DNA of 28,945 bases, from the IMG/VR virus record IMGVR_UViG_3300044614_000124, positions 1-28,945 of that record. The stretch is one strand, 5' to 3'. Numbering within the stretch: the first letter of the stretch is position 1; every line of letters begins with the position of its first letter. Below the pieces are notes generated by a model. It was not told where the DNA came from. It saw only the letters and a list, made by a program, of their open reading frames with translations, and ran no database searches. This DNA is from a virus. Below are positions 781 through 28,514 of this stretch, piece by piece. A program made the position numbers and the translations under genes.

Positions 781-985
781 TGGTGGCGCATGGAAGGTGA
801 TCAACAACGGAAAGAATCGCAGGTGGAGATGCCAGCTGTGCGTGGAGAAGAAAAACCAGCCAGCGGTGCAGAGCTGGGCGATGGGCGAGAGGACGGCCGC
901 AGCTGCTATGACTGCCGCGAATTCAAATGGAAGCACGGATTTCCACATTGCAACGCCTACGACAAGCCGACCAGCGGCCGAGTGA
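686..985 (+). CDS. Small zinc-ribbon-like protein
   Basis: The product is 99 aa, with a GTG start and AGGA at 677-680 five bases upstream. Residues about 19-53 contain FCTNC and RCQLC, two CxxC pairs about 25 residues apart with GG, W and RW between them, a typical zinc-ribbon arrangement. The sequence is convincing to about residue 58. Beyond that it becomes Ala/Thr/Ser-rich and overlaps a different frame that encodes another Cys-rich segment (CYDC...). The true C-terminus may therefore be shorter in meaning, or a frame change may join the two segments (see findings). It begins inside the 3' end of the nuclease gene. The role is unknown; a nucleic-acid-binding helper is a reasonable guess. 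Confidence 0.55.
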   Translation: MPNKEYDHVRQMATSITGKRFCTNCRMNQRADGGAWKVINNGKNRRWRCQLCVEKKNQPAVQSWAMGERTAAAAMTAANSNGSTDFHIATPTTSRPAAE

Positions 986-1011
986 ATGGATGCAGTTCCT
1001 ACGCCGAATGA
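838..1011 (+). CDS. Short Cys-rich protein, unknown function
   Basis: This frame encodes CYDC (about residues 23-26), then a Cys near 36 and a GCSSY ending: a Cys/His-rich segment with CYDCREFKWKHG, FPHCNAYDKPTSG and RVNGC that looks like a small metal-binding knuckle. The GTG at 838 is preferred (57 aa) because GGAG at 825-828 is nine bases upstream; the in-frame ATG at 790 would give 73 aa but has only a weak ribosome site. The gene overlaps the preceding zinc-ribbon frame through position 985 and the next gene by 26 bases. It may be a separate coupled gene, or the downstream part of a frameshifted product with the 686 frame. Confidence 0.45.
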   Translation: MRGEEKPASGAELGDGREDGRSCYDCREFKWKHGFPHCNAYDKPTSGRVNGCSSYAE

Positions 1012-1267
1012 TCCGCGCCTGGTTTGCTATTCCTGCGGTGCTGTGCATCGCTGGGCTCGCCTGGTTGATTTGCCTGACGGTCGCGTTGTTGGGAATTATT
1101 CTGAGGATTACCGACGATATTGCGAAGCTGTGGCGGTTCTCAAGAAGTACCGGGTCAAACGCACCCGGCAGGACTATCTGGCCATTGTCGCGGAGAAGCG
1201 CGGCACGCAGGCGATGGTGGAGCTGAGAGAGGAGATGCTGAGGGTATGGCAGAGCCGGCAAGAGTGA
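986..1267 (+). CDS. Small CxxC-containing protein, unknown function
   Basis: The product is 93 aa from an ATG at 986 that lies inside the end of the preceding gene. There is a single CYSCG pair at about residues 14-18 followed by an HRW segment. The C-terminal half is charged and probably helical (EAVAVLKKYRVKRTRQDYLAIVAEKRG and onward). I do not recognise a family. It is the third short Cys-containing product in a row between the nuclease and the replication-type gene, which suggests an accessory role in DNA metabolism, but this is context only. The following gene begins within its 3' end. Confidence 0.55.
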   Translation: MDAVPTPNDPRLVCYSCGAVHRWARLVDLPDGRVVGNYSEDYRRYCEAVAVLKKYRVKRTRQDYLAIVAEKRGTQAMVELREEMLRVWQSRQE

Positions 1268-2223
1268 TCGAGTTTAAGCTGCCCAGGAGGCGGCCAAAGA
1301 TTGTCGAGAAGCAGGCACCGCCTGATCAACGCAGCCTGGCCGTGGTGCCGTTGCGTGCGATCAGAGACCGGAACATCAGCGACAGTCAGTTGCGGTGCCT
1401 GGCGACCATCTGCAGCTACTGCAACCGGGCTGGGATCACCTGGGTTGGCCAGGATCGGGTTGGCAAGGATCTGGGTGTGAGCAAGCAGTCGATCAATAAG
1501 CAAGTGAAGCGCCTGGTCGAGCTCGGATATCTGGAAGTAGTGAGCAAGGGATTCAGAGGCGAGCGTGCCAACACCATGCGGGTGATCTTCGACCCAGAGA
1601 TAAAGACAGAAGATGCCATTGCTATCACCAGCGGCCAGGAAGACACCAGGCCACCGGAGACAAGGCGCAGGGAAAGCAAAGAGATGGCCCAGCAAGGAAA
1701 GGATGTAACCCGGTCGGGATATAACAAGCCATCACAGGCTAACAAAGCACCAGACTTGCCCGCTGAGGAAACTGAGTTTACAGACGAACAGATGGCTGCT
1801 AACAGACAGAGATTGAGAGAGATGCTGTCGGGTATGGCGCCGAAGAATCACACCACTCACGGATTGCAATCGATAGGGGATGTCATGGGAACAACACGCA
1901 AACTGAAGGCTAAGAAGCCATCACATAGTCAACCCAATACGGTTGACAATGACAAGGGCTTACATAGTCAACTTCATAGTCAACCCAATGGAGTTGACGG
2001 AACACGAAAAAACATAGGTTTAGGAGAGGTTATAAGTCTTTATGAAGAGATAATTAAAAGAAGGTTTATGGTTTCTGTTACGACAACCGAAGTTGATTTG
2101 AAAGCTGCGGAAATCTTGTGCGAGGTTGGTGTGACTGCCAGCGAGCTCGATGCCGCGATGTCGGAGCAACTGCCGATGGTGCTGATTGCCGAAAAGATCC
2201 TCAATGCGAGGGTGAGCCGGTGA
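1246..2223 (+). CDS. Winged-helix replication-initiator-like protein
   Basis: The product is 325 aa from the ATG at 1246 (GGAG at 1231-1234). GTG 1264, in a GTGA overlap with the previous stop, is an alternative start. Residues about 25-105 hold a helix-turn-helix/winged-helix module: ISDSQLRCLATI, then GITWVGQDRVGKDLGVSKQSINKQVKRLVELGYLEVVSKG. This is the pattern of HTH_36-type domains found in phage replication proteins that bind the origin. A charged linker follows. Residues about 220-255 contain the repeated HSQPNxVD, encoded by DNA with iteron-like repeats (1924-1998). A conserved-looking helical C-terminus (VISLYEEIIKRRF ... AEKILNARV) ends the protein. As in lambda O, initiator and origin may share the same DNA. 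No helicase loader is visible nearby. A transcriptional regulator is the main alternative. Confidence 0.62.
   Translation: MAEPARVIEFKLPRRRPKIVEKQAPPDQRSLAVVPLRAIRDRNISDSQLRCLATICSYCNRAGITWVGQDRVGKDLGVSKQSINKQVKRLVELGYLEVVSKGFRGERANTMRVIFDPEIKTEDAIAITSGQEDTRPPETRRRESKEMAQQGKDVTRSGYNKPSQANKAPDLPAEETEFTDEQMAANRQRLREMLSGMAPKNHTTHGLQSIGDVMGTTRKLKAKKPSHSQPNTVDNDKGLHSQLHSQPNGVDGTRKNIGLGEVISLYEEIIKRRFMVSVTTTEVDLKAAEILCEVGVTASELDAAMSEQLPMVLIAEKILNARVSR
1924..2075. repeat. Iteron-like repeats plus AT-rich tract (candidate origin)
   Basis: CATAGTCAAC occurs three times (1924-1933, 1963-1972, 1975-1984). The 15-mer CATAGTCAACCCAAT is exact at 1924 and 1975. Inverted partners GGTTGAC (1941-1947) and GTTGAC (1993-1998) form two dyads with the GTCAAC cores at 1928 and 1979. 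Immediately downstream, about 2005-2075 is rich in A and T. Direct repeats beside an AT-rich tract inside a replication-initiator gene is the layout of lambdoid origins. Function is inferred. Confidence 0.5.
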
Positions 2224-13840: not shown

Positions 13841-14467
13841 ATGGCAGTCAATCCAACAACTTTTAGCGCAGGGCTCAATGCCGGAGCCGGTCTATTTTCA
13901 AGCATTGCTGCCGGGTACGCATCCAAGGCAGACGGATATCTGCGCCAGGCTGGATATGCCGTCCAGGCTCAAGAAGCGCTGCGCTTATCTGGCCTGCGAG
14001 CCGACAAGGCAATCGAATACGCCGAACTGCAGTCTGACCGTCGTCGGTTTCAAATGGACATTGAGCAGCTTAACTACAAAGCGCAGGCTAACAGTTTGCT
14101 TGATAACCTAGCGCGAAACAATGCAGCGGCTCGGGCAAGAGCGGCGGCCAATGGCGTTGATATTGGCAGCGGTTCAGCCTACGCCGTGCAGCGCGAAAAC
14201 GTGCGCAACACTTATCAAGACGTTGGCATGGTGAATCTGTCTGCCCTGGTGGCCAGAGTGTTTGGTATGGAAGACGCAACTAACATCTTGAAGGCAGGCT
14301 ATGACAACGCCTTCTATGAGCGCGAATCTGCAATATCTAACGCTCGCACGCTAGCCACATCCGGCACCTATGCTGCCAAGTCTGGCGGGCTGTTGGCCGA
14401 TGCCAAGATGCTCGAGGGCGCAACACAGTTTGCGAAGACCGTGCCAACCAAAGGCTATTTCACTTAG
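13841..14467 (+). CDS. Internal virion protein (T7 gp14-like position)
   Basis: The product is 208 aa, starting two bases after the previous stop. An N-terminal Gly/Ala-rich segment (SAGLNAGAGLFSSIAAGYASK) resembles a membrane-active stretch. It is followed by a long helical part (YAVQAQEALRLSGLRADKAI, DIEQLNYKAQANSLLDNLAR) and ARAAANGVDIGSGSAYAV, typical of small ejection proteins of podoviruses. In T7, gp14 is released first and forms a pore in the outer membrane. Similarity is by pattern and gene order, not by alignment. Confidence 0.75.
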   Translation: MAVNPTTFSAGLNAGAGLFSSIAAGYASKADGYLRQAGYAVQAQEALRLSGLRADKAIEYAELQSDRRRFQMDIEQLNYKAQANSLLDNLARNNAAARARAAANGVDIGSGSAYAVQRENVRNTYQDVGMVNLSALVARVFGMEDATNILKAGYDNAFYERESAISNARTLATSGTYAAKSGGLLADAKMLEGATQFAKTVPTKGYFT

Positions 14468-14476
14468 GACTGAAAA

Positions 14477-16219
14477 ATGGCACAGCTTCCCCAGACCCAA
14501 TCATTCAGAGCTCAGGTCAACCAGGCGCCGTCTGCCGTCGCGCCTGGCGTGAGCTTTGGCCAGCAGCGTCCAGAGCTAGCCTATGAGGCGCAGGCCCAAT
14601 ATCAAGGAACCGTGTCCAAGGTGCTCGACCGCCTGACAAGTACGATTTTTGGTGTAGCTCAAGATCAGAGCCAGCGTGCTGGCCTCCAATTTTCAGCTGA
14701 GAATCCGCTCACGGCAACGCAGCTCAAGGCAATGGCCACGGGTGACGTTAGCGAGCTCGATCTTGGCAACCCACTCAATGTGTTCAACAACGCGGTGCGC
14801 AAGGCGCGTGCAATTGAGCTTTCAGCCCACGCTGAGATTGAGGGCCGTGACAAGCTGGTCGAGTTGCTTAAGAAAGCTGAAAGCGGCGAGATCGACACAG
14901 GTGCCATCCGCGACCATGTGGCTGCAATCACCAACGGGTATGGCGAAGCACTTGCTCAGATCGAACCAGAGGCGTCCTATAAGTATCGGGCAACGATGGC
15001 CACGATCGGGTCTAAGGTCATCGACAAGGTGGCCGAGCTTGAGGGCAAGAAGCGTCTGATTGCAAACCGCACCAAGCTCGATCGCCTCTACCAGAATATG
15101 CAAAAAGAGGTTTCGCTTTATGCAAGCTCAGAGCCGCCGCTTGATCCAAAAACCGGGCAGCCGATGCCACTCGACATGGTGACCGATTCGCTCAAGCAAA
15201 ACTTTCTGAACAACGCGCAGACGCTAGGCGGCCTCAACGCAGTTGACGTCTACATTGCAAGAATCGACAAGGACATCACAGACGCCAAGATCAACTCTGT
15301 GACGCAGGTCTTAATCACAGACGAAAACTTTGGCAAGCCGGGAACACTCGACGCATTGCGCGTGGGCAACGCCGGCAAAGCGACCGCTGCATATATGTCG
15401 CTGTTGCCAGAGGATCGCGCTAAGGTCATGGCTAATTACATGACAGCCATATCCAACCGGCGCAATGAAATGGAAACCGTCAAAGCCGCCGATAAGCTGG
15501 CCGCAGAAGGCACAGCCAACAATCTGCTTATTGAATTCTACAACCCGTCAACCAACCAGACGCGCCGCCGCCAGATCGGTAACGAGCTTGCCGGCCTCAA
15601 GGTGTTGAGCGTAGATCAGATGGAGCGGTTTCTTAATCCGAAGGTCGAGGGCGACGCATATGCATACGCAGACCTTGAGACCGCAATTGTCACAAACCAG
15701 ATTACCGATTCTGCTGAATTGCGAAAGCTGGCCGCACGCTCCGGCATGAACGGCGAGCAATACGCACGCCTTAACACCAAGCTTCTCAGCGGACTCTCCA
15801 AAGACGAGACCTTCGCATTTAAAATCATGCAAAACGCCGCAGGATTGCCAGACGTCATCGGCGTGCGCACCAAAGACGACCAGCATATGTTTGATAAACG
15901 CCGCGTGCTTAACCAGCGTTTTGAGCTAGCCAAAAGTGACAAGCTTAAAAAAGGTGAGGCGTTTGACCCTGTTGCGCTTGCTTATGAGGTAATTGACAAC
16001 TATAACAAGGTGGACGGCGCTAACGTCAAAAAGAATCAAGCGCAAAGAAAACTTGACAATGTTGTAAAAGATATTCGCGCTCGCAAGAATATGCCTGATA
16101 GCTTTACGATTGATTCCACTACTAATTTAGACGACTTGCTTTCGCGCAAAATTATTGACAACGACCAATACGAGTATCTAAAAACCCAGCAGCGCATCTT
16201 GCGTGAGGTGACGCAATGA
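14477..16219 (+). CDS. Internal virion / ejection protein (T7 gp15-like position)
   Basis: The product is 580 aa, predominantly helical and hydrophilic. The start (AQLPQTQSFRAQVNQAPSAV) and the segment LAYEAQAQYQGTVSKVLDRL followed by ATQLKAMATGDVSELDLGNP resemble large podoviral internal core proteins. So does the Lys/Glu-rich C-terminal part. No enzymatic motif is visible. In T7 the equivalent protein forms the periplasmic tunnel for DNA entry. It ends in an ATGA overlap with the next gene. Confidence 0.75.
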   Translation: MAQLPQTQSFRAQVNQAPSAVAPGVSFGQQRPELAYEAQAQYQGTVSKVLDRLTSTIFGVAQDQSQRAGLQFSAENPLTATQLKAMATGDVSELDLGNPLNVFNNAVRKARAIELSAHAEIEGRDKLVELLKKAESGEIDTGAIRDHVAAITNGYGEALAQIEPEASYKYRATMATIGSKVIDKVAELEGKKRLIANRTKLDRLYQNMQKEVSLYASSEPPLDPKTGQPMPLDMVTDSLKQNFLNNAQTLGGLNAVDVYIARIDKDITDAKINSVTQVLITDENFGKPGTLDALRVGNAGKATAAYMSLLPEDRAKVMANYMTAISNRRNEMETVKAADKLAAEGTANNLLIEFYNPSTNQTRRRQIGNELAGLKVLSVDQMERFLNPKVEGDAYAYADLETAIVTNQITDSAELRKLAARSGMNGEQYARLNTKLLSGLSKDETFAFKIMQNAAGLPDVIGVRTKDDQHMFDKRRVLNQRFELAKSDKLKKGEAFDPVALAYEVIDNYNKVDGANVKKNQAQRKLDNVVKDIRARKNMPDSFTIDSTTNLDDLLSRKIIDNDQYEYLKTQQRILREVTQ

Positions 16220-18183
16220 AGACTTTTGAAGATTCCTACACGCAGGTGTACATGGACTCCATGTATCCGCAGCCCGAGCCTATCCAGCTTGCTGCCGGGC
16301 CGTCGGCAACCATGTCAGATGCGCCCTCGCCGGCCGCCGGATCAATGTCTGCAATTCCACAAACTGGGTTTGAAAAGATTCTTGAGCAGACCGGGCTCAC
16401 GCTTGAGCAGGTAGGCATGGAACTTGACAAGCTGGGCAAGGTAAGCATCGGTGGGTTTGAAATTGGCATAAGGGATTTTCTGCCGTTTGTTGGTAGTTCA
16501 GAAAAAGAAATTGACCCGGCAACTGGCAAAGAGACTGTTAAGCAAGTCGGCACACCGCAGGCGCTGCAAAAGCTTGGCACCGGTGTTGGCCCAATGTTAG
16601 ATCGAGTAAGCCGCGGCACCGGGTTCGCCCGGCAGCTGGATCAAGACGCCAAGCTAGCAATGTTTGATCTTCCAACCGTGGGCGCGGCTATTAAGCCAGC
16701 GGCAAAATTGGGCAAAACAGCTGTCAATGCAACAAAAGAACTCCCTGTTGGCTTAAGTATTAAGCCAGTTGGTCAAATTCCAACCGGGGCTCCAGCGCCA
16801 AATGTGGTGAGTACCAGGCTTCCAACAGCGAAAAAAGCAACAGAAGACCCAATTGCCAACAAGTTAGTAATTGATTTGCCAACTATGAAAGCAGATCCAA
16901 ACGCTTTTACAGAAAACATAAACCTAATTCGCGAGTATCCAAACTTTGTATCTAACGCTGCCAATACAGACCAGGCCGCAGAAGATTTTATTGGTCAGGT
17001 CAAAGACAATTTGCTCTGGCTATATGACCAGGTTCCAGACCAAACTCGAAACCGTTCCCGGCTTTGGTATGACGGAGCGCGAAATATAGTTGACCAATGG
17101 GGCGGTGAGTTTGGAAAACCAGACCAAGCAATATCTGGGGTGCTTGCCGTGCTATCCCCGCAAAAAGATTGGTTTATGAATGTCTCGCTAGGAAACCGAG
17201 TGCTTGATATTGCACTTAATAAAAACAGCTTTGGCTGGGATAGCGCAATGGACGATACAGCCGGCCGTATTTGGGCAAAGGAAAAATACGCGCCAGTTTT
17301 AAATTTGGTTCGGGGAAAATCCTACAATGAGTTGACATCTCCTGCCGAAAAAGCTTTGTGGTTGCGCACCTATGATGAAACATTTAATGACCGCGCTCAT
17401 CAGATTGTCACTCCAGAAGGAACCTTTGCCGGCGTGCGCTTGAAGATGGATGGCACGCCGTTTGGCACCGGATGGGGGTCTTTAAATGAAATTGGCAAAG
17501 CTGTTGCCATTCTCGAAAACCCATCTTTGGAAAACATCAGCTTAATGCTTGGCCAACAACATAAGGTGCGCAATTTCTACAACAACATTTATGCGCCAAA
17601 CGACCAAGCCGGCCATGTAACAATCGACACCCACGCGGTTGCTGCTGGCCTTTTGCGACCATTATCTGGAAACAGCAGAGAGGTGGCCCACAATTTTGGA
17701 AGCAACATAAAAGGCGAACGCGGCCCGGTTAACAGCTCTGTCTCTGGAGCCCAAGGAACTTATGGGCTATACGCAGAGGCATATCGCCGAGCAGCTGCAG
17801 ATCGCGGAGTGCTTCCGCGTGAAATGCAATCCATTACCTGGGAAGCTGTTCGTGGGCTGTTTCCAGACCGCTGGAAAACTGAAAAAAATTCTCAACTAAT
17901 TGATAACATTTGGGTAGAATATCGAAAGGGAAAGATATCTCTTGAAGAGGCGAGAAATGAAGTTATCAGAACAGCAGGTGGAATCAATGCCCCAGAGTGG
18001 GAAGGAACAGGACTTCGTGGTGGAGCTGCTGGCCAAAGCGAAAATGCCGTTGACCAGGGACAATTATCTGGGTCTAGCTTATCCGGACGGAGTGCCGAAA
18101 GATCTAGACGAAACAAGTCTGCCGCCGGAAATTCGACAAGCGTAATTGGGGGCCAGGCGGCTCCCGCAATGGGAGCTGAGTAA
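16216..18183 (+). CDS. Ejection-module protein with an HhH-GPD-glycosylase-like domain
   Basis: The product is 655 aa. Residues 1-210 are low-complexity with Pro/Ala/Gly stretches and a GFEKILEQTGLTLEQVG helix. Residues about 300-560 form a globular domain with ISGVLAVLSPQKDWFMNVSL (307-326), LGQQHKVRNFYNNI (445-458), HVTIDTHAVAAGLL (467-480) and MQSITWEAVRGLF (537-549). Endonuclease III carries AVLLSAQATD, a helix-hairpin-helix with catalytic Lys120, then AVDTH with Asp138, in the same order. Here Lys450 and Asp471 would correspond. This suggests a DNA glycosylase/AP-lyase fold, possibly carried in the virion; it is inference. I recall this domain being labelled as of unknown function in phages (DUF7178, unverified). 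The C-terminal 70 residues are Gly/Ser/Ala/Arg-rich and overlap a second gene in another frame. Confidence 0.7.
   Translation: MKTFEDSYTQVYMDSMYPQPEPIQLAAGPSATMSDAPSPAAGSMSAIPQTGFEKILEQTGLTLEQVGMELDKLGKVSIGGFEIGIRDFLPFVGSSEKEIDPATGKETVKQVGTPQALQKLGTGVGPMLDRVSRGTGFARQLDQDAKLAMFDLPTVGAAIKPAAKLGKTAVNATKELPVGLSIKPVGQIPTGAPAPNVVSTRLPTAKKATEDPIANKLVIDLPTMKADPNAFTENINLIREYPNFVSNAANTDQAAEDFIGQVKDNLLWLYDQVPDQTRNRSRLWYDGARNIVDQWGGEFGKPDQAISGVLAVLSPQKDWFMNVSLGNRVLDIALNKNSFGWDSAMDDTAGRIWAKEKYAPVLNLVRGKSYNELTSPAEKALWLRTYDETFNDRAHQIVTPEGTFAGVRLKMDGTPFGTGWGSLNEIGKAVAILENPSLENISLMLGQQHKVRNFYNNIYAPNDQAGHVTIDTHAVAAGLLRPLSGNSREVAHNFGSNIKGERGPVNSSVSGAQGTYGLYAEAYRRAAADRGVLPREMQSITWEAVRGLFPDRWKTEKNSQLIDNIWVEYRKGKISLEEARNEVIRTAGGINAPEWEGTGLRGGAAGQSENAVDQGQLSGSSLSGRSAERSRRNKSAAGNSTSVIGGQAAPAMGAE
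17957..18145 (+). CDS. Small protein fully nested in another frame
   Basis: This ORF of 62 aa lies wholly within the 3' end of the preceding large gene, in a different frame. ATG 17957 has AAGAGG at 17945-17950, six bases upstream. The product includes FVVELLAKAKMPLTRDNYLG, then LAYPDGVPKDLDE and LPPEIRQ. The pattern MPLTRxNYLxLAYPDGxP with a following Leu-Pro-x-Glu-(I/L) is one I recognise from widespread small bacterial and phage proteins of unknown function. The host-frame sequence over the same stretch is low-complexity, as expected when one frame is constrained by another. It is probably translated from its own ribosome site. Confidence 0.72.
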   Translation: MKLSEQQVESMPQSGKEQDFVVELLAKAKMPLTRDNYLGLAYPDGVPKDLDETSLPPEIRQA

Positions 18184-21149
18184 TGGCCATAAAACCGCTC
18201 GAGCAACGGCTCGATTCAATCCTTCCAGAAGCAACACCGCCAGAGGTCGAGCAGACCCTAGCCGAAGAAAACCCAATCACCCTTGAAGTAGATGCGGTAG
18301 ATGCTACGGATGCCGAGCCGGTGCAGGTTGCCGGCCTTGGCAACCTTGGAAAGATGTTCACCAAGCAAGCCGTCGAATCTGCTGTTAAAAAGGCAGACCA
18401 AGCGTTGCAAGGCCCGCCTACACCGCCAACCCCAACACCGCGCAAGATTCCCAAGGCCAAACCGGCCAAGGCTCAAGACCTGCAAAAGACAGAGCAGCAG
18501 CTTGAGGCTTTTGAAGGTGCCATCGATACCGCACCGACCGCCGGCACGCCGCCGGAAACAATGGTCAATCTAAACCGCATTGACGGGCCTGATGACTTCA
18601 AGCAGGCCGTTGAATCGCTGGTGACGTCCTCCGGTATCGAGATCAAGCGCATGACGTTTGAGCAGACCTTGGAGGCCGCCAAAGCCAAAGGTTTTGACTA
18701 CCGGATGATCAGCGAGCTCGAGGCGCTCAAGAAGCAATATGGCGACCTGCCGCCCGACATGGTGCGGTTGCGCTTGGCTGCGTATCAAAACAATCGTGAG
18801 TTCTACGACCTAGCCCGTCGCGCTTATACCGAGACAGACAACCAGGAGCTCATGGCCCAGCTGTTGCATAAGCTCAACCTGCAGACATCTATCAACGATG
18901 CCTACATGACGGTGCGCACCAGGGCTGCCCAAGGCACAGCGGTCGGCAACTTACAGATCACCGAAGGCATGGCCAAGGGTTTTCTGGATGAGGCAGGCAA
19001 CGTCAAGATCCCTGCCATCAACGACGCCGAGATGAAAAAAATGCTGGCCGATCCAACGGTCAGCGAAAACCTCAAGCTGCTGGTCGAGAAGTTTGTGCAG
19101 CTCACAGACGAAGCCGGCCGTGAGGAGCTGATCAACAAGGTCAGTAAAGTCGGCCTTATGCGCGACTTGTGGGATCGCACCTGGAAAAATGGCTTACTGT
19201 CAGCAACTGGCACACACATTGTCAACCTGACATCAAACACCACATTTCTGGCCAGCACCGTGGCAACCCGTCAGCTGGCTGGTCTCGCCGGTGTATTAAA
19301 GCGCGGTGTTGGAATGCAGGCCGAGGTCGAGGCTGGTGAAGCAGCTGCAATGGTTGCCGGCATGGTTCACACCTGGCGCGAAGCAATGAGCTTGGGCTGG
19401 ACGGCGCTGAAGACCGGCACAACTCGCGAAATGCGCGAAGGCAGCGATCTATTATCAGACGCCGGCCAAAGGCTTGAGGGTCAGTATCAGATCTTTGACG
19501 CCAAAAATTACGGCATTGAAAACGAAACTATCGTTAAAGGTATGAACGGCTACGCCAATTTTGTGACTCTGCTTGGCGGTAGGCCCATCATGGCCATGGA
19601 CGAAGTGTTTAAGCTCATGGGCTACCGAGCCGAGTTATACGCTCAAGCATACCGAGCTCAGGCGCAGGCTAAACGTGCCGCCTTATCTACCGGCAAAACT
19701 GCTGACGAAGCCGAAGAGATTGGCCTACTTAAGATGGGTGAGATCCTTGGAAACCCGCCAAGCGAGATTGATGAGGTAGCCAAAGACTTTGGCCACATGA
19801 TTACCTTTTCACGAAAGCTGACCGGGTCTTCTAAGAGTATCCAGGACTTTGCCCAAGAAAACCTAGTTGGTCGCATCATGCTGCCGTTTGTAAAAACTCC
19901 GGTGTGGGTGACATCTGAATCGATGCAGCACAGTATGCTCGCCCCTCTTTCCAAACAATGGAGAACTGATATTGCTGCAGGCGGTGCCAAGCGCGAGCTT
20001 GCCCTGGCTAAGTGGGGAATGGGGTCGGGCATTATGATCGGTGTTGGATCCTATGTGGCAGACGGCCGGATCACAGGCGGCGGCCCCGGCAACCAGGCGC
20101 TCAAGCAGACCTATATGGCCAGCGGCTGGCGCCCCTACTCTTTTGTTTTCCAAACCGGAGAGTGGGATCAGGAATTTGTTGACTACTTAAAGACTGTCAA
20201 AATCGACGCAAGCATTGGCAAGGACGGTCGGTTGTATGTGCCTTTTCGCGGGATCGACCCAATTGCTGGCCCGCTATCCATGGTTGCCGACGCGGTGGAA
20301 TATGCCCGCTATGAAGACGACCAAGACAAGGTTGGGCAGGTAGTGCTAGGGGCCGTTTGGGGTTTGTACTCCTATGTTGGCCAACTGCCGGTTATGACCG
20401 CGTTGTCGGGCGTTACAGGCGCTTTCTCTCAGACCATACCAAACCCAAAGGCGGCATTTAAGAACGCCATTGACGCCTTTGTAAAGCAGTCTGCGGGCTA
20501 TGCCGTAGAGGGATCTCCGGCCGGCATCTTCAGCTCGGCTCGGGGCATGGTGGCTAGGGGCTTAGACCCGGTCAGGCGCGATGTGAGCGGTGACCCAAAC
20601 GCCCAAACCGGCGTCAAGGGCTGGGGCGAATTCTGGAATTACTACGTTTCCCGCACGCCCGTCCTATCTGAAGACATATCGGAAAGCCACGACTACCTGG
20701 GCGAAGTGGAGTACCGCGGCGACCCAGCCAATCCGTGGCTGTCATCCATGTCTGGGATTCGGTATTCCGAAAGCAAGCAACGCCAGACCGACAAGATCAT
20801 CATTGCCTTGGGTGTGCCAGTTAAAAAGCCGGACGCCAACATAGAGGTCAACGTGGGCGGGGAAACCGTGCGGGTAAAGCTAGATGCAAAAGAACGCCAA
20901 TTCATGCTGCGGCAGCTGGCGCTGGTAACCAACGGCAAGGGAGAAAGCATCCAAGAGGCAATTGTCAACACGGCCGCAACCCCTGGTTTTGAGCTGGCCG
21001 ACAAGAACGTCAAGCAAGACATGATCAAGGATACCTATGCCGAATTTGTCCGTCTGGCCAAGGATGCCCTGATTGAGCAAAAACCTGGGGTGATGATGCG
21101 AGCAGAAAAGGCTGCGTCAAGGCTGCCTATCTATGGTAATCCTAAATGA
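18183..21149 (+). CDS. Large internal virion / ejection protein (T7 gp16-like position)
   Basis: The product is 988 aa, the largest in the window. The N-terminal 130 residues are Pro/Ala/Lys-rich and flexible. The rest is helical, with a conserved-looking block LWDRTWKNGLLSATGTHIVN, LTSNTTFLASTVATRQLAGL at about 329-370. Hydrophobic stretches such as WGMGSGIMIGVGSYV occur near residue 615. No lytic transglycosylase motif like that at the N-terminus of T7 gp16 is visible, so peptidoglycan cutting is not supported. Such proteins are packaged in the core and ejected to carry DNA across the inner membrane. Position as the last gene before the fibre supports this role. Confidence 0.75.
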   Translation: MAIKPLEQRLDSILPEATPPEVEQTLAEENPITLEVDAVDATDAEPVQVAGLGNLGKMFTKQAVESAVKKADQALQGPPTPPTPTPRKIPKAKPAKAQDLQKTEQQLEAFEGAIDTAPTAGTPPETMVNLNRIDGPDDFKQAVESLVTSSGIEIKRMTFEQTLEAAKAKGFDYRMISELEALKKQYGDLPPDMVRLRLAAYQNNREFYDLARRAYTETDNQELMAQLLHKLNLQTSINDAYMTVRTRAAQGTAVGNLQITEGMAKGFLDEAGNVKIPAINDAEMKKMLADPTVSENLKLLVEKFVQLTDEAGREELINKVSKVGLMRDLWDRTWKNGLLSATGTHIVNLTSNTTFLASTVATRQLAGLAGVLKRGVGMQAEVEAGEAAAMVAGMVHTWREAMSLGWTALKTGTTREMREGSDLLSDAGQRLEGQYQIFDAKNYGIENETIVKGMNGYANFVTLLGGRPIMAMDEVFKLMGYRAELYAQAYRAQAQAKRAALSTGKTADEAEEIGLLKMGEILGNPPSEIDEVAKDFGHMITFSRKLTGSSKSIQDFAQENLVGRIMLPFVKTPVWVTSESMQHSMLAPLSKQWRTDIAAGGAKRELALAKWGMGSGIMIGVGSYVADGRITGGGPGNQALKQTYMASGWRPYSFVFQTGEWDQEFVDYLKTVKIDASIGKDGRLYVPFRGIDPIAGPLSMVADAVEYARYEDDQDKVGQVVLGAVWGLYSYVGQLPVMTALSGVTGAFSQTIPNPKAAFKNAIDAFVKQSAGYAVEGSPAGIFSSARGMVARGLDPVRRDVSGDPNAQTGVKGWGEFWNYYVSRTPVLSEDISESHDYLGEVEYRGDPANPWLSSMSGIRYSESKQRQTDKIIIALGVPVKKPDANIEVNVGGETVRVKLDAKERQFMLRQLALVTNGKGESIQEAIVNTAATPGFELADKNVKQDMIKDTYAEFVRLAKDALIEQKPGVMMRAEKAASRLPIYGNPK

Positions 21150-23200: not shown

Positions 23201-23521
23201 ATGGCAAATACTTTTAAAAATTATGTGTCCGCTGCTGTTGGTACATCTGCAGCGACCATTGTAACGGCATCAGCGGCCACCACGGTGATCGGTATGACCG
23301 TTGCTAACATCACAGCATCGACTATCAATGTGGATGTCTACACCACAATTGGCGGCACTAACTACTACATTGTTAAGGGCGCGGTGATACCAAGCGGCGG
23401 TTCATTAGTACCAATTGGCGGTGATCAAAAACTGGTGCTGGAATCAGGTGATGCGCTTAAGGTCTTATCGTCAGCAGCATCATCCGCTGATGTCATCGCA
23501 TCTGTTCTGGAGATTACCTAA
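23201..23521 (+). CDS. Small fibre-associated protein, beta-rich
   Basis: The product is 106 aa, starting three bases after the fibre stop. It is Thr/Ser/Ala/Val-rich and appears all-beta (TINVDVYTTIGGTNYYIVKG, then VIPSGGSLVPIGG). Its layout, with a late LESGDALKVLSSAAS segment, parallels the 119-aa protein at 26378 (LEEGDKITALASAAGDLE), so the two are probably distant paralogues. Such small jelly-roll-like proteins lie in tail-fibre clusters of several marine phages. A role as fibre cap, trimerisation aid or virion component is inferred from context. The last base is shared with the following ATG. Confidence 0.6.
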   Translation: MANTFKNYVSAAVGTSAATIVTASAATTVIGMTVANITASTINVDVYTTIGGTNYYIVKGAVIPSGGSLVPIGGDQKLVLESGDALKVLSSAASSADVIASVLEIT

Positions 23522-24588
23522 TGTCGTACATTGGATCGCCCCCAGCACCGAACATTGCAGGCGTTGAAGTAACGCCTACTGAGGTATCTGACCAGGCTAA
23601 CAATAGCACCGGGTATTTTGATCTACCTGCTGGAACGACAGCCGAGCGTCCTGGCACTCCAACAACAGGGATGATGCGGTACAACACCACAGAATCTCAA
23701 TATGAGGTTTATAACGGCACAGATTGGCAATACTTTGCTCAAATTAGTTATTTATATTCAGTAGAGTTTTTGGTTGTTGCTGGTGGTGGTGGCGGTGGCG
23801 GTGATATTGCTGGAGGTGGTGGCGCTGGTGGAGCAATTGATTCAACATTAACTGTTACAAAATCTTCAAATTACACCGTAACCGTTGGTGCTGGCGGCGC
23901 AGCAAGTGGAACTACAAGAGAATCAAATACAACAGGAAATAACGGATCTAATTCTGTTTTTAATTCTACAACTGCAACAGGTGGCGGTGGTGGTGGCGCA
24001 TATTGGAGTGGTAATTCTACATATGAAACAGGAAAATCTGGAGGATCTGGAGGTGGCGGCGCCGCTGGAATTACAACAACAACTGGTGCTGGTGGGTCAG
24101 GAACATCAGGGCAAGGTAATGCTGGTGGACGAGCCTATGGAAGTTCTCCTTATTGGGGTGCAGGCGGCGGCGGAAAAAATGCGGCTGGCAGCAATGCTAC
24201 AAGTACAGCCGCAGGCGCTGGAGGCGCTGGTATAAACTGGAAATCACTTGGCACTTTTTACGCTGGCGGCGGTGGTGGTTCTGGTTACGGAACCAGCGGA
24301 ACTGGAACTGTTGGCGGCGCTGGCGGATCAGGCGGCGGCGGAAATGGTGGATATGGACAAGTCGAACCCGCTTCAATAGGAAGCAATGCAACTGCAAATA
24401 CTGGTGGAGGCGGAGGTGGTGGCGCTTATTCTTCCTCTCCCACTAGACCATCAGCCGGAGGTGCTGGTGGTTCTGGCGTTGTAATTCTTCGCTATGCTGG
24501 GTTACCACAAGGATCAGGCGGAACAATTACACAATCTGGTGGTTATACCTATCACACATTTACATCATCTGGAACATTTACAGCATAG
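23521..24588 (+). CDS. Glycine-rich adhesin-like tail protein 1
   Basis: The product is 355 aa. Residues 1-75 are an anchor region (EVSDQANNSTGYFDLPAGTT and RPGTPTTGMMRYNTTESQYE) shared with the protein at 24978. From VEFLVVAGGGGGGG (about 81) to about 330 the protein is dominated by Gly runs broken by Ser/Thr/Ala/aromatic segments (TVTVGAGG, NGSNSVF, TATGGGGGG, GAGGSG, GGAGGSGVVILRYAG). It ends SGGYTYHTFTSSGTFTA. Stacked polyglycine-II helices in the gp38 adhesin of phage S16 have this composition and bind receptors through variable loops. By analogy this could be the receptor-binding tip. The repeated GGT/GGC codons make the DNA prone to recombination. Confidence 0.75.
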   Translation: MSYIGSPPAPNIAGVEVTPTEVSDQANNSTGYFDLPAGTTAERPGTPTTGMMRYNTTESQYEVYNGTDWQYFAQISYLYSVEFLVVAGGGGGGGDIAGGGGAGGAIDSTLTVTKSSNYTVTVGAGGAASGTTRESNTTGNNGSNSVFNSTTATGGGGGGAYWSGNSTYETGKSGGSGGGGAAGITTTTGAGGSGTSGQGNAGGRAYGSSPYWGAGGGGKNAAGSNATSTAAGAGGAGINWKSLGTFYAGGGGGSGYGTSGTGTVGGAGGSGGGGNGGYGQVEPASIGSNATANTGGGGGGGAYSSSPTRPSAGGAGGSGVVILRYAGLPQGSGGTITQSGGYTYHTFTSSGTFTA

Positions 24589-24597
24589 GAGATATAC

Positions 24598-24978
24598 ATG
24601 GCGCATTACGCAAAAGTAAACAATGGAATCGTGGAACAAGTCATCGTTGCCGAACCAGAATTTTTTCAGACATTTGTAGACACTTCACCTGGTGCATGGA
24701 TTCAGACATCCTATAACACTCGCGGTGGGGTTCACTACAATCCAGAGACTAACGAACCGTCTGCCGATCAGACCAAAGCGCTGCGTAAGAACTATGCTGG
24801 CATTGGCTTTTCTTATGACGCACAGCGTGATGCGTTTATTCCTCCAAAGCCGTATGCGTCTTGGAATCTTAACGAGACATCGTGCTTGTGGGAATCGCCA
24901 GTACCTTATCCTACCGATGGAAATATGTATCGCTGGGATGAGGCAACGACATCCTGGGTACAAGTAGAGCAGCCATAA
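24598..24978 (+). CDS. Tail-fibre-cluster protein, possible assembly helper
   Basis: The product is 126 aa, with AGGAGAT upstream. It starts MAHYAKVNNGIVEQVIVAEP and contains WIQTSYNTRGGVHYNPETNE, then ALRKNYAGIGFSYDAQRDAF, then IPPKPYASWNLNETSCLWES and MYRWDEATTSWVQV. This (A/V)xxxGIVxxVIVAE ... WIQTSYNTRGGVHY ... RKNYAGIGxxYD ... FIPPKP pattern is frequent near tail or fibre genes of marine myo- and podoviruses, especially cyanophages. Its function is not established; a fibre chaperone or small virion protein is likely. It shares its last base with the next gene's ATG. Confidence 0.65.
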   Translation: MAHYAKVNNGIVEQVIVAEPEFFQTFVDTSPGAWIQTSYNTRGGVHYNPETNEPSADQTKALRKNYAGIGFSYDAQRDAFIPPKPYASWNLNETSCLWESPVPYPTDGNMYRWDEATTSWVQVEQP

Positions 24979-26072
24979 TGGGACGCGCACGCACCCTTGC
25001 TACATACGGTGCTGGCATAGCGCCAGCCACGGTGTCGGACACGGCTAATACCAGTACGGGTTATCTTGACTTGCCTGCGGGTACTACTGCCCAGCGGCCA
25101 GGATCTCCTGCTAATGGTATGGCGAGATACAACACAGACAATGACCAATATGAGTTGTATGTTGAAACAGATTGGAAAGCCGTTAGTGTAACTAATATCC
25201 CATATTCTGTTGAGTATTTAGTAATTGCAGGTGGTGGAGGCGGCGGTTCTAATCGCGGTGCTTCTGGTGGCGGCGCTGGTGGTTATCGTTCCTCTGTGTC
25301 TGGTGAATCATCCGGTGGGGGTTCATCTGCTGAAAGCACCGCAACGGTTGCTGTTGGAACTTCTTATACCGTTACTGTTGGCGCTGGTGGTGTTGCTGCT
25401 AACTTTTATTCTGGGAATACCCCGTCTACCGCAGGTTCTAATTCTGTTTTTGGAGGAGTAACTTCTGTTGGTGGTGGCAGGGGGGTATCAAATGGAGATT
25501 CTCTTGCACCTTTTAACGGCGGTTCTGGTGGCTCTGGTGCTGGTGGAGGAAGTGCAACTAATGGTGGAGGTTCTGGTGGTGCTGGCACATCGGGCCAAGG
25601 TTACGCCGGTGGAAATACATCTGGCGGCGCAACAACATCTGAAAATGAGGGTGGTGCGGGTGGTGGTGGCGCTGGTGCTGTTGGTGGTAGCACTTCAACT
25701 ATAAGAACTGGCGGTGCTGGAGGCAACGGTGTTTCATCAAGTATTACCGGGTCTGCTGTAACACGCGCCGGTGGCGGTGGTGGCGGCGCAAACGGTTCTG
25801 GTTCTACCCCTGGCGCTGGTGGTAGTGGCGGTGGCGGCGCTGGTGTCGCTGGTGTTGGTGCTAATTCAACTCCAACTGGAGTGCCTGGAACTGCAAATAC
25901 TGGAGGCGGTGGGGGCGGCGGTGGTTATAACGCTGTACCAGGAGGCGCTGGTGGCTCAGGCATAGTTATTCTTCGTTACCTTGGCTCTCAAAAAGGTACA
26001 GGTGGAACGGTAACCAGCAGCGGCGGGTACACCATTCATACATTCACATCAAGCGGGACATTCACAGCATGA
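24978..26072 (+). CDS. Glycine-rich adhesin-like tail protein 2
   Basis: The product is 364 aa and is a paralogue of the protein at 23521. The anchor region aligns as VSDTANTSTGYLDLPAGTTA, RPGSPANGMARYNTDNDQYE, and the glycine-rich part starts with VEYLVIAGGGGGGS near residue 78. It shares TVTVGAGG, AGSNSVFGG, GGAGTSGQGYAGG and GGAGGSGIVILRYLG, and ends SGGYTIHTFTSSGTFTA. The loops between Gly runs differ from paralogue 1, as expected if these determine receptor choice. Tandem duplication followed by divergence is the simplest origin. Its end overlaps the next start (ATGA). Confidence 0.75.
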   Translation: MGRARTLATYGAGIAPATVSDTANTSTGYLDLPAGTTAQRPGSPANGMARYNTDNDQYELYVETDWKAVSVTNIPYSVEYLVIAGGGGGGSNRGASGGGAGGYRSSVSGESSGGGSSAESTATVAVGTSYTVTVGAGGVAANFYSGNTPSTAGSNSVFGGVTSVGGGRGVSNGDSLAPFNGGSGGSGAGGGSATNGGGSGGAGTSGQGYAGGNTSGGATTSENEGGAGGGGAGAVGGSTSTIRTGGAGGNGVSSSITGSAVTRAGGGGGGANGSGSTPGAGGSGGGGAGVAGVGANSTPTGVPGTANTGGGGGGGGYNAVPGGAGGSGIVILRYLGSQKGTGGTVTSSGGYTIHTFTSSGTFTA

Positions 26073-26374
26073 GTTATCTTGGCGTTCCCCCATTTGGTAA
26101 TACGATCCGCACGGTGACTAATGTCACAGCCACTAGCGGCCAGACAACATTCAACATTACTGGCGGGTATGTGGTTGGCTATGTCGATGTGTTTCTTAAC
26201 GGCGTACTGTTGACACCATCAGACTACACGGCATCGGATGGATTGACCGTGGTGCTGACATCTGCTGCTGCACTTAATGACGAATTTCAAGCGCTGTCAT
26301 ATCAGCCGGTGACCCTGGCTAATACAGCATCAACAGGCAAGGCCATTGCGATGGCCGTGGTTTTCGGAGGATAA
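26069..26374 (+). CDS. Small tail-fibre domain protein
   Basis: The product is 101 aa, starting in an ATGA overlap. MSYLGVPPFGNTIRTVTNVT, then ATSGQTTFNITGGYVVGYVD, then VFLNGVLLTPSDYTASDG and VVLTSAAALNDEFQALSY form a compact beta domain. I know this domain as a recurring N-terminal or free-standing module in fibre proteins of aquatic phages; VDVFLNGVLL and the DYTASDG turn are its hallmarks. The N-terminal MSY(L/I)GxPP is also found in adhesin-like protein 1. Here it stands alone, possibly as a connector for the neighbouring glycine-rich proteins. Confidence 0.65.
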   Translation: MSYLGVPPFGNTIRTVTNVTATSGQTTFNITGGYVVGYVDVFLNGVLLTPSDYTASDGLTVVLTSAAALNDEFQALSYQPVTLANTASTGKAIAMAVVFGG

Positions 26375-26377
26375 AAC

Positions 26378-26737
26378 ATGGCAGCACCTAATATCGTCAA
26401 TGTGGCAACTATTACAGGCAGAACCGTTGGCGCTGCTTTAACTACTTCAAGCGCAGACATTGTGACCAATTCTGCAGGCAGCGGTAAGGTGTTCAAGGTC
26501 AATTCAATTTTGGTAGCCAATGTGGATAGCCTTGCTAACGCAGATGTGACCGTTGGTTTTTACAATGCAGATAACACGACAACATATAAAATTGCACACA
26601 CGATCACAGTACCGTTTGACGCGACACTTGATGTATTAAGTAAGGCGCTTTATCTTGAAGAGGGTGACAAAATCACAGCGCTTGCTTCTGCTGCAGGTGA
26701 TCTTGAAATCATTGTTTCTTACGAGGAAATTTCGTAA
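26378..26737 (+). CDS. Small beta-rich fibre-cluster protein
   Basis: The product is 119 aa, three bases after the previous stop. It is a beta-sandwich-like sequence: IVNVATITGRTVGAALTTSS, KVFKVNSILVANVDSLANAD, VTVGFYNADNTTTYKIAHTI, then LYLEEGDKITALASAAGDLE and VSYEEIS. It resembles the 106-aa protein at 23201 in layout. Proteins with the L-EEGDKI-ALAS segment are common in phage virions of marine habitats, with unassigned roles. It shares its last base with the next glycine-rich gene. Confidence 0.6.
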   Translation: MAAPNIVNVATITGRTVGAALTTSSADIVTNSAGSGKVFKVNSILVANVDSLANADVTVGFYNADNTTTYKIAHTITVPFDATLDVLSKALYLEEGDKITALASAAGDLEIIVSYEEIS

Positions 26738-27582
26738 TGAGCCTTAGACATAATGGCGGTGTTTTTGGTGTTCGTAACACAACAACATCTTCATCTGCCA
26801 AAGGCCGTTTCTCTCTTAATGAGGTATTAGAAGCGCTCAAAGGATCTATTTGGCCTTTGCAACAAATTGATATTGAATATCTTATAGTCGCTGGTGGAGG
26901 TGGGGGTGGTGCAGGTAGTTCGGGTTCTCACTACGGCGGTGGTGGTGGGGCTGGAGGTTTTTTAACTTCTACATTAACCAATGCTACTCTTGGAACCTCA
27001 TATACCGTTACCGTTGGTGCTGGTGGTGCGTATACTAATACAACAAGTACAGCCGGTACTAACGGAAGTAATTCTGTATTTTCGTCATTTACTGCAACAG
27101 GTGGTGGTGGTGGCGCTGGTGGTAATGGAGTTGGAGCAGGATCAGGTGGATCAGGTGGCGGTGGCGCATACAACGCTGGAACCGGTGGATCTGGAACAAC
27201 AGGCCAAGGATTTCGTGGCGGTAATTACTATACAGGAGGACAAGGTGCGCCAGGAGGAAGTTCTTCTGCTGCCGGTTCTGATAGTTCAACAGCAGCAAGT
27301 GCTGGAACATCAAGTTCAATTACCGGAAGTTCAGTAACTTATGCTCGCGGAGGTGATGGCAATCCAGGTGGTACTGGTGGTTCAGGCTCAAATAATGGTA
27401 ATGGTGGAAAAGGTGGTAGACCAGTAACAAATGAAAATGGCAATAGTGGAGTAAGTGGTGTTGTAATACTAAAATTACTAACATCTCGTTATTCTGGAAC
27501 AACTACTGGTTCTCCTACTGTAACTACTTCTGGTAATTATACGATTCTTACTTACACATCATCTGGAACATATACAGCATAA
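26737..27582 (+). CDS. Glycine-rich adhesin-like tail protein 3
   Basis: The product is 281 aa. The glycine-rich part starts with IEYLIVAGGGGGGAG near residue 45 and shares TVTVGAGG, GTNGSNSVF, TATGGGGGAGG, GTGGSGTTGQG and a C-terminal TTSGNYTILTYTSSGTYTA with paralogues 1 and 2. The N-terminus is different and short (SLRHNGGVFGVRNTTTSSSA, then RFSLNEVLEALKGSIWP), so its attachment must differ. It may be an alternative receptor binder mounted by a different route. DNA is lower in GC than the other two paralogues, consistent with separate acquisition. Confidence 0.7.
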   Translation: MSLRHNGGVFGVRNTTTSSSAKGRFSLNEVLEALKGSIWPLQQIDIEYLIVAGGGGGGAGSSGSHYGGGGGAGGFLTSTLTNATLGTSYTVTVGAGGAYTNTTSTAGTNGSNSVFSSFTATGGGGGAGGNGVGAGSGGSGGGGAYNAGTGGSGTTGQGFRGGNYYTGGQGAPGGSSSAAGSDSSTAASAGTSSSITGSSVTYARGGDGNPGGTGGSGSNNGNGGKGGRPVTNENGNSGVSGVVILKLLTSRYSGTTTGSPTVTTSGNYTILTYTSSGTYTA

Positions 27583-27608: not shown

Positions 27609-28514
27609 ATGGCAATTGCACTTCAACTAAGGCGAGGAACGACTGTTCAGCATTCGTCATTTGCTGGCGCTCTTGGCGAAGTGACTGTTGACACTACAAA
27701 AGACACAGCCGTTGTCCATGATGGATCGACTGCCGGTGGATTTCCCCTTGCCAAAGAGAATGGATCGACACTTACCAATGTCACGATCAGCAGCGGCGCT
27801 ATTACTGGAATTACAGATTTGGCCGTGGCAGACGGTGGCACGGGCGCAAGTACGGCTGCCGGTGCGCGTACCAATCTTTTGCCAGCATTTGCCACTAATG
27901 GAAACAAGGCGTTGTTTGTAAACTCTGGCGCAACAGACATTGAGTACCGCACCATTGTTGGCGTGACCGATGGTGACAAAGGTGACATTGTTGTGTCATC
28001 GAGCGGTGCTACCTGGACGATTGACAATGCTTCTGTGACACCGGCCAAGTTAAGTAACCCGATGACAAGAACCACAAGTCAGAATGCGGCCAGCACTTCG
28101 TTCGTTACGTTTACTGACGTTCCAGCTTGGGTAAAAAAAATTACGGTTTGTATTGGAGCTCTTAACACTACATCAGCTGCAAACTTATTGATAAGAATTG
28201 GAGATAGTACAGGCGTCGCCGCAACTGGATATGTTTCTGGGTCTTCTAGAATTGGAACGTCTGCGGCCTCCTCTTCAACGGCAACAAATTGCTTTCTAAT
28301 AAATTCCGGAAGTTCCGGATATGTTTTAAATGGAATTGTGACAATTGCTAATGTTGCCGGGGATACATGGCTTGCTTCTGGCTCTGTTTCATTTACGGAC
28401 GGAACTATTACTTGCGCCGGAACAAAAACACTATCAAGCGTCCTTACCGCCGTAAGTTTTGTGCCAAGCACCGGAACATTTAATGCCGGAACCTTGAACA
28501 TAATTTACGAATAG
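27609..28514 (+). CDS. Second tail fibre protein
   Basis: The product is 301 aa, with GAGG upstream (27597-27600). The first 55 residues (IALQLRRGTTVQHSSFAGAL, GEVTVDTTKDTAVVHDGSTA) resemble the small N-terminal domain of fibre and tropism proteins such as Mtd (LRRGTT ... GEL ... DT ... VGDGST). Residues about 74-118 (VADGGTGASTAAGARTNLLP, then AFATNGNKALFVNSGATDIE) repeat the C-terminal module of the long fibre at 21185. The C-terminal 150 residues are beta-rich and Ser/Thr/Gly-rich, ending as a probable jelly-roll-like tip; there is no C-type lectin or diversity-generating signature. It may form a side fibre or the distal part of the main fibre. Confidence 0.7.
   Translation: MAIALQLRRGTTVQHSSFAGALGEVTVDTTKDTAVVHDGSTAGGFPLAKENGSTLTNVTISSGAITGITDLAVADGGTGASTAAGARTNLLPAFATNGNKALFVNSGATDIEYRTIVGVTDGDKGDIVVSSSGATWTIDNASVTPAKLSNPMTRTTSQNAASTSFVTFTDVPAWVKKITVCIGALNTTSAANLLIRIGDSTGVAATGYVSGSSRIGTSAASSSTATNCFLINSGSSGYVLNGIVTIANVAGDTWLASGSVSFTDGTITCAGTKTLSSVLTAVSFVPSTGTFNAGTLNIIYE

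Follow-up and report, generated by a model that had tools for sequence, protein, structure and literature searches.

A predicted OGG-like glycosylase fold in an ejection-region gene of a T7-like podophage, a probable injected cargo

Phage polyvalent proteins, which combine several disparate enzymatic domains, have been inferred to accompany the genome when it is injected, and the study concerned names neither a glycosylase nor a base-excision domain (Iyer et al. 2017, PMC5512222). In the 8-oxoguanine glycosylases (OGGs), an Asp and a Lys are catalytic, and the base is contacted or stacked by D194/W198 in OGG2, D218/W222 in AGOG, and Q315/F319 in OGG1 (PMC3397491). Here we describe, by computational analysis, a gene at positions 16216-18183 (+) of the IMG/VR virus record IMGVR_UViG_3300044614_000124, together with its conservation, predicted fold, gene order, fusions and the swapping of its cargo. 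The analysed stretch in its entirety (28,945 bases, hereafter the window) belongs to a T7-like podophage by gene content. We consider it likely that the gene is an accessory cargo of the podophage ejection apparatus, in which a docking head is joined to a divergent OGG-like enzyme of the helix-hairpin-helix (HhH)-GPD fold that would enter the cell with the genome.

The open reading frame (ORF) is intact, encodes 655 amino acids, and is located within a tight run of late genes, overlapping the upstream gene at ATGA and the downstream gene at TAATG. The protein matches Pfam DUF7178 (PF23802) with an E-value of 1.9e-23 (83.9 bits against a curated cut-off of 27) and PHROG 3842 with an E-value of 8.3e-22, and belongs to both. 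Each of these families is filed as of unknown function, and we here propose a fold, an active site and a role as cargo. Relatives occur on more than 500 IMG/VR stretches, at 21 loci in genome contigs, and in three phage records at E <= 1e-5. DUF7178 was found in none of 14 control genomes; among 299 genomes from a single bacterial phylum it occurred in 2, of which one was the seed genome. It is therefore mainly a phage family. The Pfam profile also recovered a standalone form, S-CBP42 gp36 (198 amino acids; such forms span 198-208). The window protein has no match in PADLOC or NCBIfam, a sequence search of the PDB gave no relative, and a literature search gave no paper naming DUF7178.

A sequence-only reading of the window had likened the protein to endonuclease III (EndoIII) on account of VLAVLSPQKDW (residues 309-319), LGQQHKVRNFYNNI (445-458) and HVTIDTHA (467-474), with Lys450 and Asp471 as the key residues, and the translation carries all of these at the residues given. 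Kinship to EndoIII or MutY by sequence was rejected, as hhalign returned a probability of ~0 in local and global modes with two alignments, and the protein has no match to PF00730 (HhH-GPD) up to E 1. By these comparisons, the likeness of the motifs to EndoIII carries no significance on its own. It rises above chance because Lys450 and Asp471 are invariant in close, distant and standalone relatives. Both are present in 63 of 63 close relatives and throughout 50 sequences spanning 29-77% identity. When 33 standalone and embedded sequences (22-65% identity) were aligned, just 13 columns were invariant (W26, Y27, A53, S56, P57, W61, N64, K119, F123, D137, A173, Q184 and W188 in standalone numbering), and these take in the counterparts of Lys450, Asp471, Gln538 and Trp542. 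Q316 and K317 of motif 1 vary among the standalone forms in this alignment. The catalytic Lys and Asp of EndoIII are 18 residues apart. The spacing of 21 that had been set against this value holds for the embedded form and fails for the standalone form, where it is 18, equal to that of the OGG2 enzyme MjOgg. Between the window and its relative L001, the ratio of non-synonymous to synonymous substitution rates (dN/dS) of the domain is 0.08, which indicates purifying selection on the enzyme domain.

AlphaFold modelled residues 198-600, the embedded domain, with a mean predicted local distance difference test (pLDDT) score of 94.7. The modelled fold contains the HhH that had been anticipated from the motifs; its second helix begins at Lys450, and Asp471 stands at the N-terminus of the following helix or just before it. 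Foldseek was uninformative on this model. In VIA-align 2, every one of rows 1-26 (Z 8.7-4.9) was an HhH-fold glycosidase, including the queuosine-phosphate glycosidase DUF2419, Pa-AGOG, hOGG1, EndoIII-3 and MutY, and unrelated rows had Z below 3. With the model of the standalone form (pLDDT 93.7), Foldseek ranked MjOgg first (E 6.5e-3, probability 1.00, TM 0.63), and VIA aligned 181 of the 198 residues to MjOgg at Z 13.0 and a root-mean-square deviation of 3.6, with SsOgg (12.8), TmOgg (12.4), EndoIII (10.6), AGOG (10.2) and hOGG1 (9.4) at lower Z. The best 50 VIA rows against the PDB were all HhH-GPD glycosylases. K119, D137, Q184 and W188 of the standalone form correspond to K129, D147, D194 and W198 of MjOgg at a constant offset of 10, a pattern of spacing that 58 of 100,000 shuffled versions of the standalone sequence reproduced. 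Profile-profile comparison of DUF7178 with 19 OGG2 sequences gave a probability of 10-17% (P 0.0015-0.003) in register with the structural match, and none of 100 block-shuffled decoys equalled the score; EndoIII compared with OGG2 as a positive control reached 91%.

The fold evidence thus consists of structure prediction plus a weak in-register OGG2 profile match, and by it the nearest kin are the 8-oxoguanine glycosylases OGG2, AGOG and OGG1, not EndoIII or MutY. From the proposed EndoIII-type match, the HhH-GPD fold and the Lys/Asp pair are retained in the models, and the EndoIII kinship is not. Because features that define PF00730 as a sequence family, EndoIII and OGG2 in the strict sense were tested and are absent, we place the protein outside all three. 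Within the HhH-GPD structural superfamily it would instead represent an OGG-like family with a probable role as injected cargo.

The placement of the gene among ejection genes, also suggested by the sequence-only reading, is borne out by downstream homology, conserved gene order and a fusion. By tblastn the gp16-like neighbour matches genes of four phages whose annotation reads 'internal virion protein' or 'internal virion protein D'. The sole homologue of the upstream gene in phage records is at the corresponding place in Methylophilales phage MEP301, which is also the nearest isolate by portal protein (72.7% identity). Both neighbours are kept in all close relatives (L001-L067) whose contig reaches far enough. 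At locus L153 a single ORF of 1418 amino acids joins DUF7178 (57-499) to a region homologous to the gp16-like protein of the window (819-1319, E 1.7e-18). In distant relatives DUF7178 is found inside giant proteins with ART-PolyVal, LPD22, LPD23, LPD38, RadC, GGDEF, GNAT, PBECR5, methyltransferase and nuclease domains, and the several disparate enzymatic domains that characterize polyvalent proteins are present in L084, L144, L147, L151, L165, L167 and L178. The isolates CRP-738 and LS06-2018-MD07 likewise encode DUF7178 within larger proteins. This setting is evidence for injection, though short of proof; for the window protein we infer packaging, injection and enzymatic activity.

Some observations lie beside this survey. 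One beta-proteobacterial metagenome-assembled genome has a single ORF of 5134 amino acids (L169:870-16271) with DUF7178 and possibly a second copy ~2000 residues onward, and on two contigs filed under uncultured archaeon (L174 and L179) DUF7178 lies within large ORFs of 2331 and 1716 amino acids. The gp16-like neighbour (P0003) was considered as an LPD38 protein, and this was not supported. In MEP301 (L251, 14031-17130), gp24 and gp23 are annotated as overlapping genes and jointly match the single gp16-like protein of the window, so they are a split gene or the product of a sequencing frameshift.

The interval between the two neighbours is polymorphic, which is new here. We surveyed the loci retaining both neighbours with a hidden Markov model (HMM) of the N-terminal head (residues 1-195). 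The head HMM matches the slot proteins of L252, L265, L266, L268, L269 and L287, as well as the short proteins of L253 and L258, with E-values from 5e-42 to 1e-6. The cargo behind the head differs among these loci: L268-L270 have a very divergent DUF7178 (Pfam E 3.5e-8 for L268 and 1.8e-7 for L269; hhalign 91%), L287 has an ADP-ribosyltransferase (ART) of the ART-PolyVal type (E 9.6e-21 against an HMM of ART-PolyVal regions), L252, L265 and L266 have other cargoes, and L253 and L258 encode a short protein only. The heads of L252 and L253 are 85% identical, with a cargo of ~600 amino acids in L252 and none in L253; those of L252 and L269 are 74% identical, and their cargoes differ. MEP301 has a different small gene in this slot. 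The match of MEP301 gp25 as a cargo-less version of the window head was not significant (E 0.26; HMM 0.0057), and we therefore reserve the term empty head for L253 and L258. The domain itself moves as a cassette that has been exchanged between diverged phages, because a block 94.6% identical between the window and L001 is bordered by flanks of only ~45-57% identity, and dS is 0.18 in the domain and 1.76 in the head.

By eye, the order Lys...Asp...Q-x3-W can also be traced in the cargoes of L252 (3542-5998; KIADF, VVDIHTARD, QAIGW) and L265 (4118-5998; TTADKW, QAVLW). This order would suggest still more divergent HhH-type enzymes. Profile comparison gave P 0.0019 for L252 against standalone DUF7178 and at best P 0.01 for L265. 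The protein of L266 (3800-5998) joins the shared head to a cargo of ~500 amino acids containing EEVQSDWHQAG.

Several points weigh against an injected OGG-like enzyme. All Foldseek E-values against the PDB exceed 0.001, with the MjOgg value of 6.5e-3 as the best; VIA only re-aligns the Foldseek list, and helical folds readily give middling Z. Sequence profiles do not detect EndoIII or MutY. In the embedded form, motif 1 and the HhH are separated by a long insertion. Standalone members, S-CBP42 gp36 among them, are located outside the structural module, and the chemistry therefore does not require the virion. Finally, when VIA is run on the embedded form, a queuosine-5'-phosphate glycosidase, DUF2419 (7u07, Z 8.7), takes the top row in a tie with AGOG (8.1); a nucleotide could therefore be the substrate.

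This last point leads to the alternative that survives best, namely that the same fold performs other chemistry, as a nucleotide or nucleoside N-glycosidase (DUF2419/Qng1-like) or as a PUGT-like transferase on hypermodified bases, and not DNA repair. The rank of DUF2419 speaks for it, as do the match to PUGT (8z2n) at Z 3.5 and the frequency of nucleotide-targeting enzymes in polyvalent proteins (PMC5512222). We nevertheless regard it as unlikely: the standalone form matches DNA glycosylases only among its best 50 VIA rows, with OGG2 first, its nucleophilic Lys, its Asp and its Q/D-x3-W pair all agree with the OGGs, the HhH is a motif that binds the DNA backbone, and the window, a partial genome, showed no hypermodification genes. 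Alternatively, the protein could be made late and remain unpackaged, acting in the producing cell, with the ejection operon serving expression only, as the position of the S-CBP42 homologue outside the structural genes would allow. The common head in a slot of variable cargo, the joining of the domain to a gp16-like region in one polypeptide of L153, and the repeated residence of DUF7178 in polyvalent proteins, inferred to be injected (PMC5512222), make this improbable. A catalytically idle HhH-fold domain, serving only as a DNA-binding or structural part of the ejection channel, would fit the position between structural genes and the fact that a shared fold by itself shows no function, but is very improbable given that Lys, Asp, Gln and Trp are strictly kept over 22-65% identity in an enzyme-like pattern and that related phages can omit the domain or carry an ADP-ribosyltransferase in its place, which makes it no required structural part.

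For the injected OGG-like enzyme the following mechanism can be proposed. The head probably docks the protein into the internal core beside the gp15- and gp16-like proteins, and the enzyme would then travel into the cell with the genome. There the HhH would hold the DNA backbone, while motif 1 (SPQKDW) would occupy the gap left by a flipped-out base, probably of purine type and damaged or modified, which Gln538 and Trp542 would hold. With Asp471 as activator, Lys450 would attack C1', the base would be released, and the strand would be nicked by beta-elimination as in bifunctional OGGs. Besides packaging and injection, we infer DNA as the substrate, the lyase step and the target; since the Lys by which OGG2 senses 8-oxoguanine (8-oxoG) is not conserved, the substrate is not readable from sequence. 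The enzyme would most likely be used early, acting on DNA while infection is in its first minutes. It may remove oxidised bases from the incoming genome, or it may cut host DNA, or that of a rival element, where this is damaged or modified, and we consider repair and attack about equally likely. The optional, swappable cargo and its adjacency to ART domains lean towards conflict, and the OGG-like pocket leans towards repair. On a wider scale, the gp15-/gp16-like interval of this lineage may be a dedicated cargo slot whose head delivers interchangeable enzymes with the genome, one widespread cargo being a base-excision enzyme directed at damaged or modified bases in host, rival or phage DNA; this we offer tentatively, as a possibility that falls somewhat short of probable.

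The features of the locus are collected in Table 1. The window also encodes a head-tail connector (PF12236, E 6.6e-99 in a Pfam search), and profile searches found a T7 capsid assembly protein, a capsid protein and a tail protein. Further downstream, at 23521-27582, three genes with the same glycine-rich domain (Gly_rich_2) follow in series with small genes interspersed, two of the three having a 70 bp repeat in common, and the product of 27609-28514 begins with a Major tropism determinant domain (Mtd_N, E 2.9e-13).

Table 1. Coordinates in the window of the cargo gene, its predicted parts and its neighbours.
Feature	Position	Strand	Basis
Cargo gene: N-terminal head, DUF7178/OGG-like glycosylase domain (predicted), low-complexity C-terminal tail	16216..18183	+	ORF, translation, Pfam DUF7178
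N-terminal head, common to slot proteins with other cargo or none	16216..16800	+	head HMM
DUF7178 / predicted HhH-GPD-fold domain	16807..18015	+	AlphaFold model; VIA rows 1-26 HhH-fold glycosidases
Motif 1, counterpart of EndoIII LLSAQATD / OGG loop	17140..17172	+	S314, P315, W319 columns invariant
HhH, helices 438-445 and 449-459	17527..17592	+	DSSP of model: H241-248, turn, H252-262, offset 197
Lys450, predicted Schiff-base nucleophile (MjOgg K129, hOGG1 K249)	17563..17565	+	invariant in alignments
Asp471, predicted catalytic Asp (MjOgg D147, hOGG1 D268)	17626..17628	+	invariant in alignments
Q538-x3-W542, counterpart of base-contacting D194/W198 (MjOgg), Q315/F319 (hOGG1)	17827..17841	+	spacing as MjOgg; Q, W invariant
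Exchanged cassette, 1519 bp	16724..18242	+	blastn, sliding identity to L001
gp14-like internal virion protein (weak)	13841..14467	+	phrog_418 internal virion protein, E 0.023
gp15-position ejection gene, 580 amino acids, conserved upstream neighbour	14477..16219	+	MEP301 homologue at corresponding place; kept in L001-L067
gp16-like internal virion protein, 988 amino acids, conserved downstream neighbour	18183..21149	+	phrog_6651 internal virion protein, E 1.5e-16

Literature searches on injected or virion glycosylases gave nothing relevant, and if our interpretation is true, no injected DNA glycosylase would have been described before this one, within the literature searched. DUF7178, with its more than 500 IMG/VR relatives, gains a testable enzymatic function, and base excision would join the activities found in proteins thought to be injected by phages. 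The slot, with an apparently common delivery head and natural empty, ADP-ribosyltransferase and glycosylase versions, allows the loading and delivery of enzymes by podophages to be tested directly in isolates like MEP301.

Among known systems, OGG2 (MjOgg 3KNT/3FHF, SsOgg 3FHG, TmOgg 3N0U) is closest, with a similar predicted fold and identical spacing of Lys, Asp and D/Q-x3-W. The differences are a sequence identity of 7-9%, a Gln where OGG2 has Asp194, the long insertion and extra N-terminal helices of the embedded form, and the 8-oxoG-sensing C-terminal Lys, strictly conserved in OGG2 (PMC3397491) and not conserved in our 33-sequence alignment of DUF7178. AGOG (Pa-AGOG 1XQO) and hOGG1 share the HhH fold (Z 10.2 and 9.4 with the standalone form, 8.1 and 7.4 with the embedded form), the catalytic Lys/Asp and a helix with a base-stacking aromatic residue, but they have no detectable sequence similarity to DUF7178, which is without the OGG1 A-domain. 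EndoIII and MutY are likewise similar in fold, and EndoIII in the Lys-Asp spacing of the standalone form, but show no profile similarity and are more remote than OGG2; the window protein contains no cysteine at all, thus lacking the C-terminal cysteines of the EndoIII [4Fe-4S] cluster and the cluster itself. DUF7178 is elsewhere fused to the hallmark modules of phage polyvalent proteins (PMC5512222), whereas the window protein is small and has one enzymatic domain, DUF7178 being the only domain found by Pfam. The Brig1-3 DNA glycosylases likewise bring base excision into the conflict between phage and host, but they are host enzymes of the uracil-DNA-glycosylase superfamily, directed against the phage (PMC13160076).

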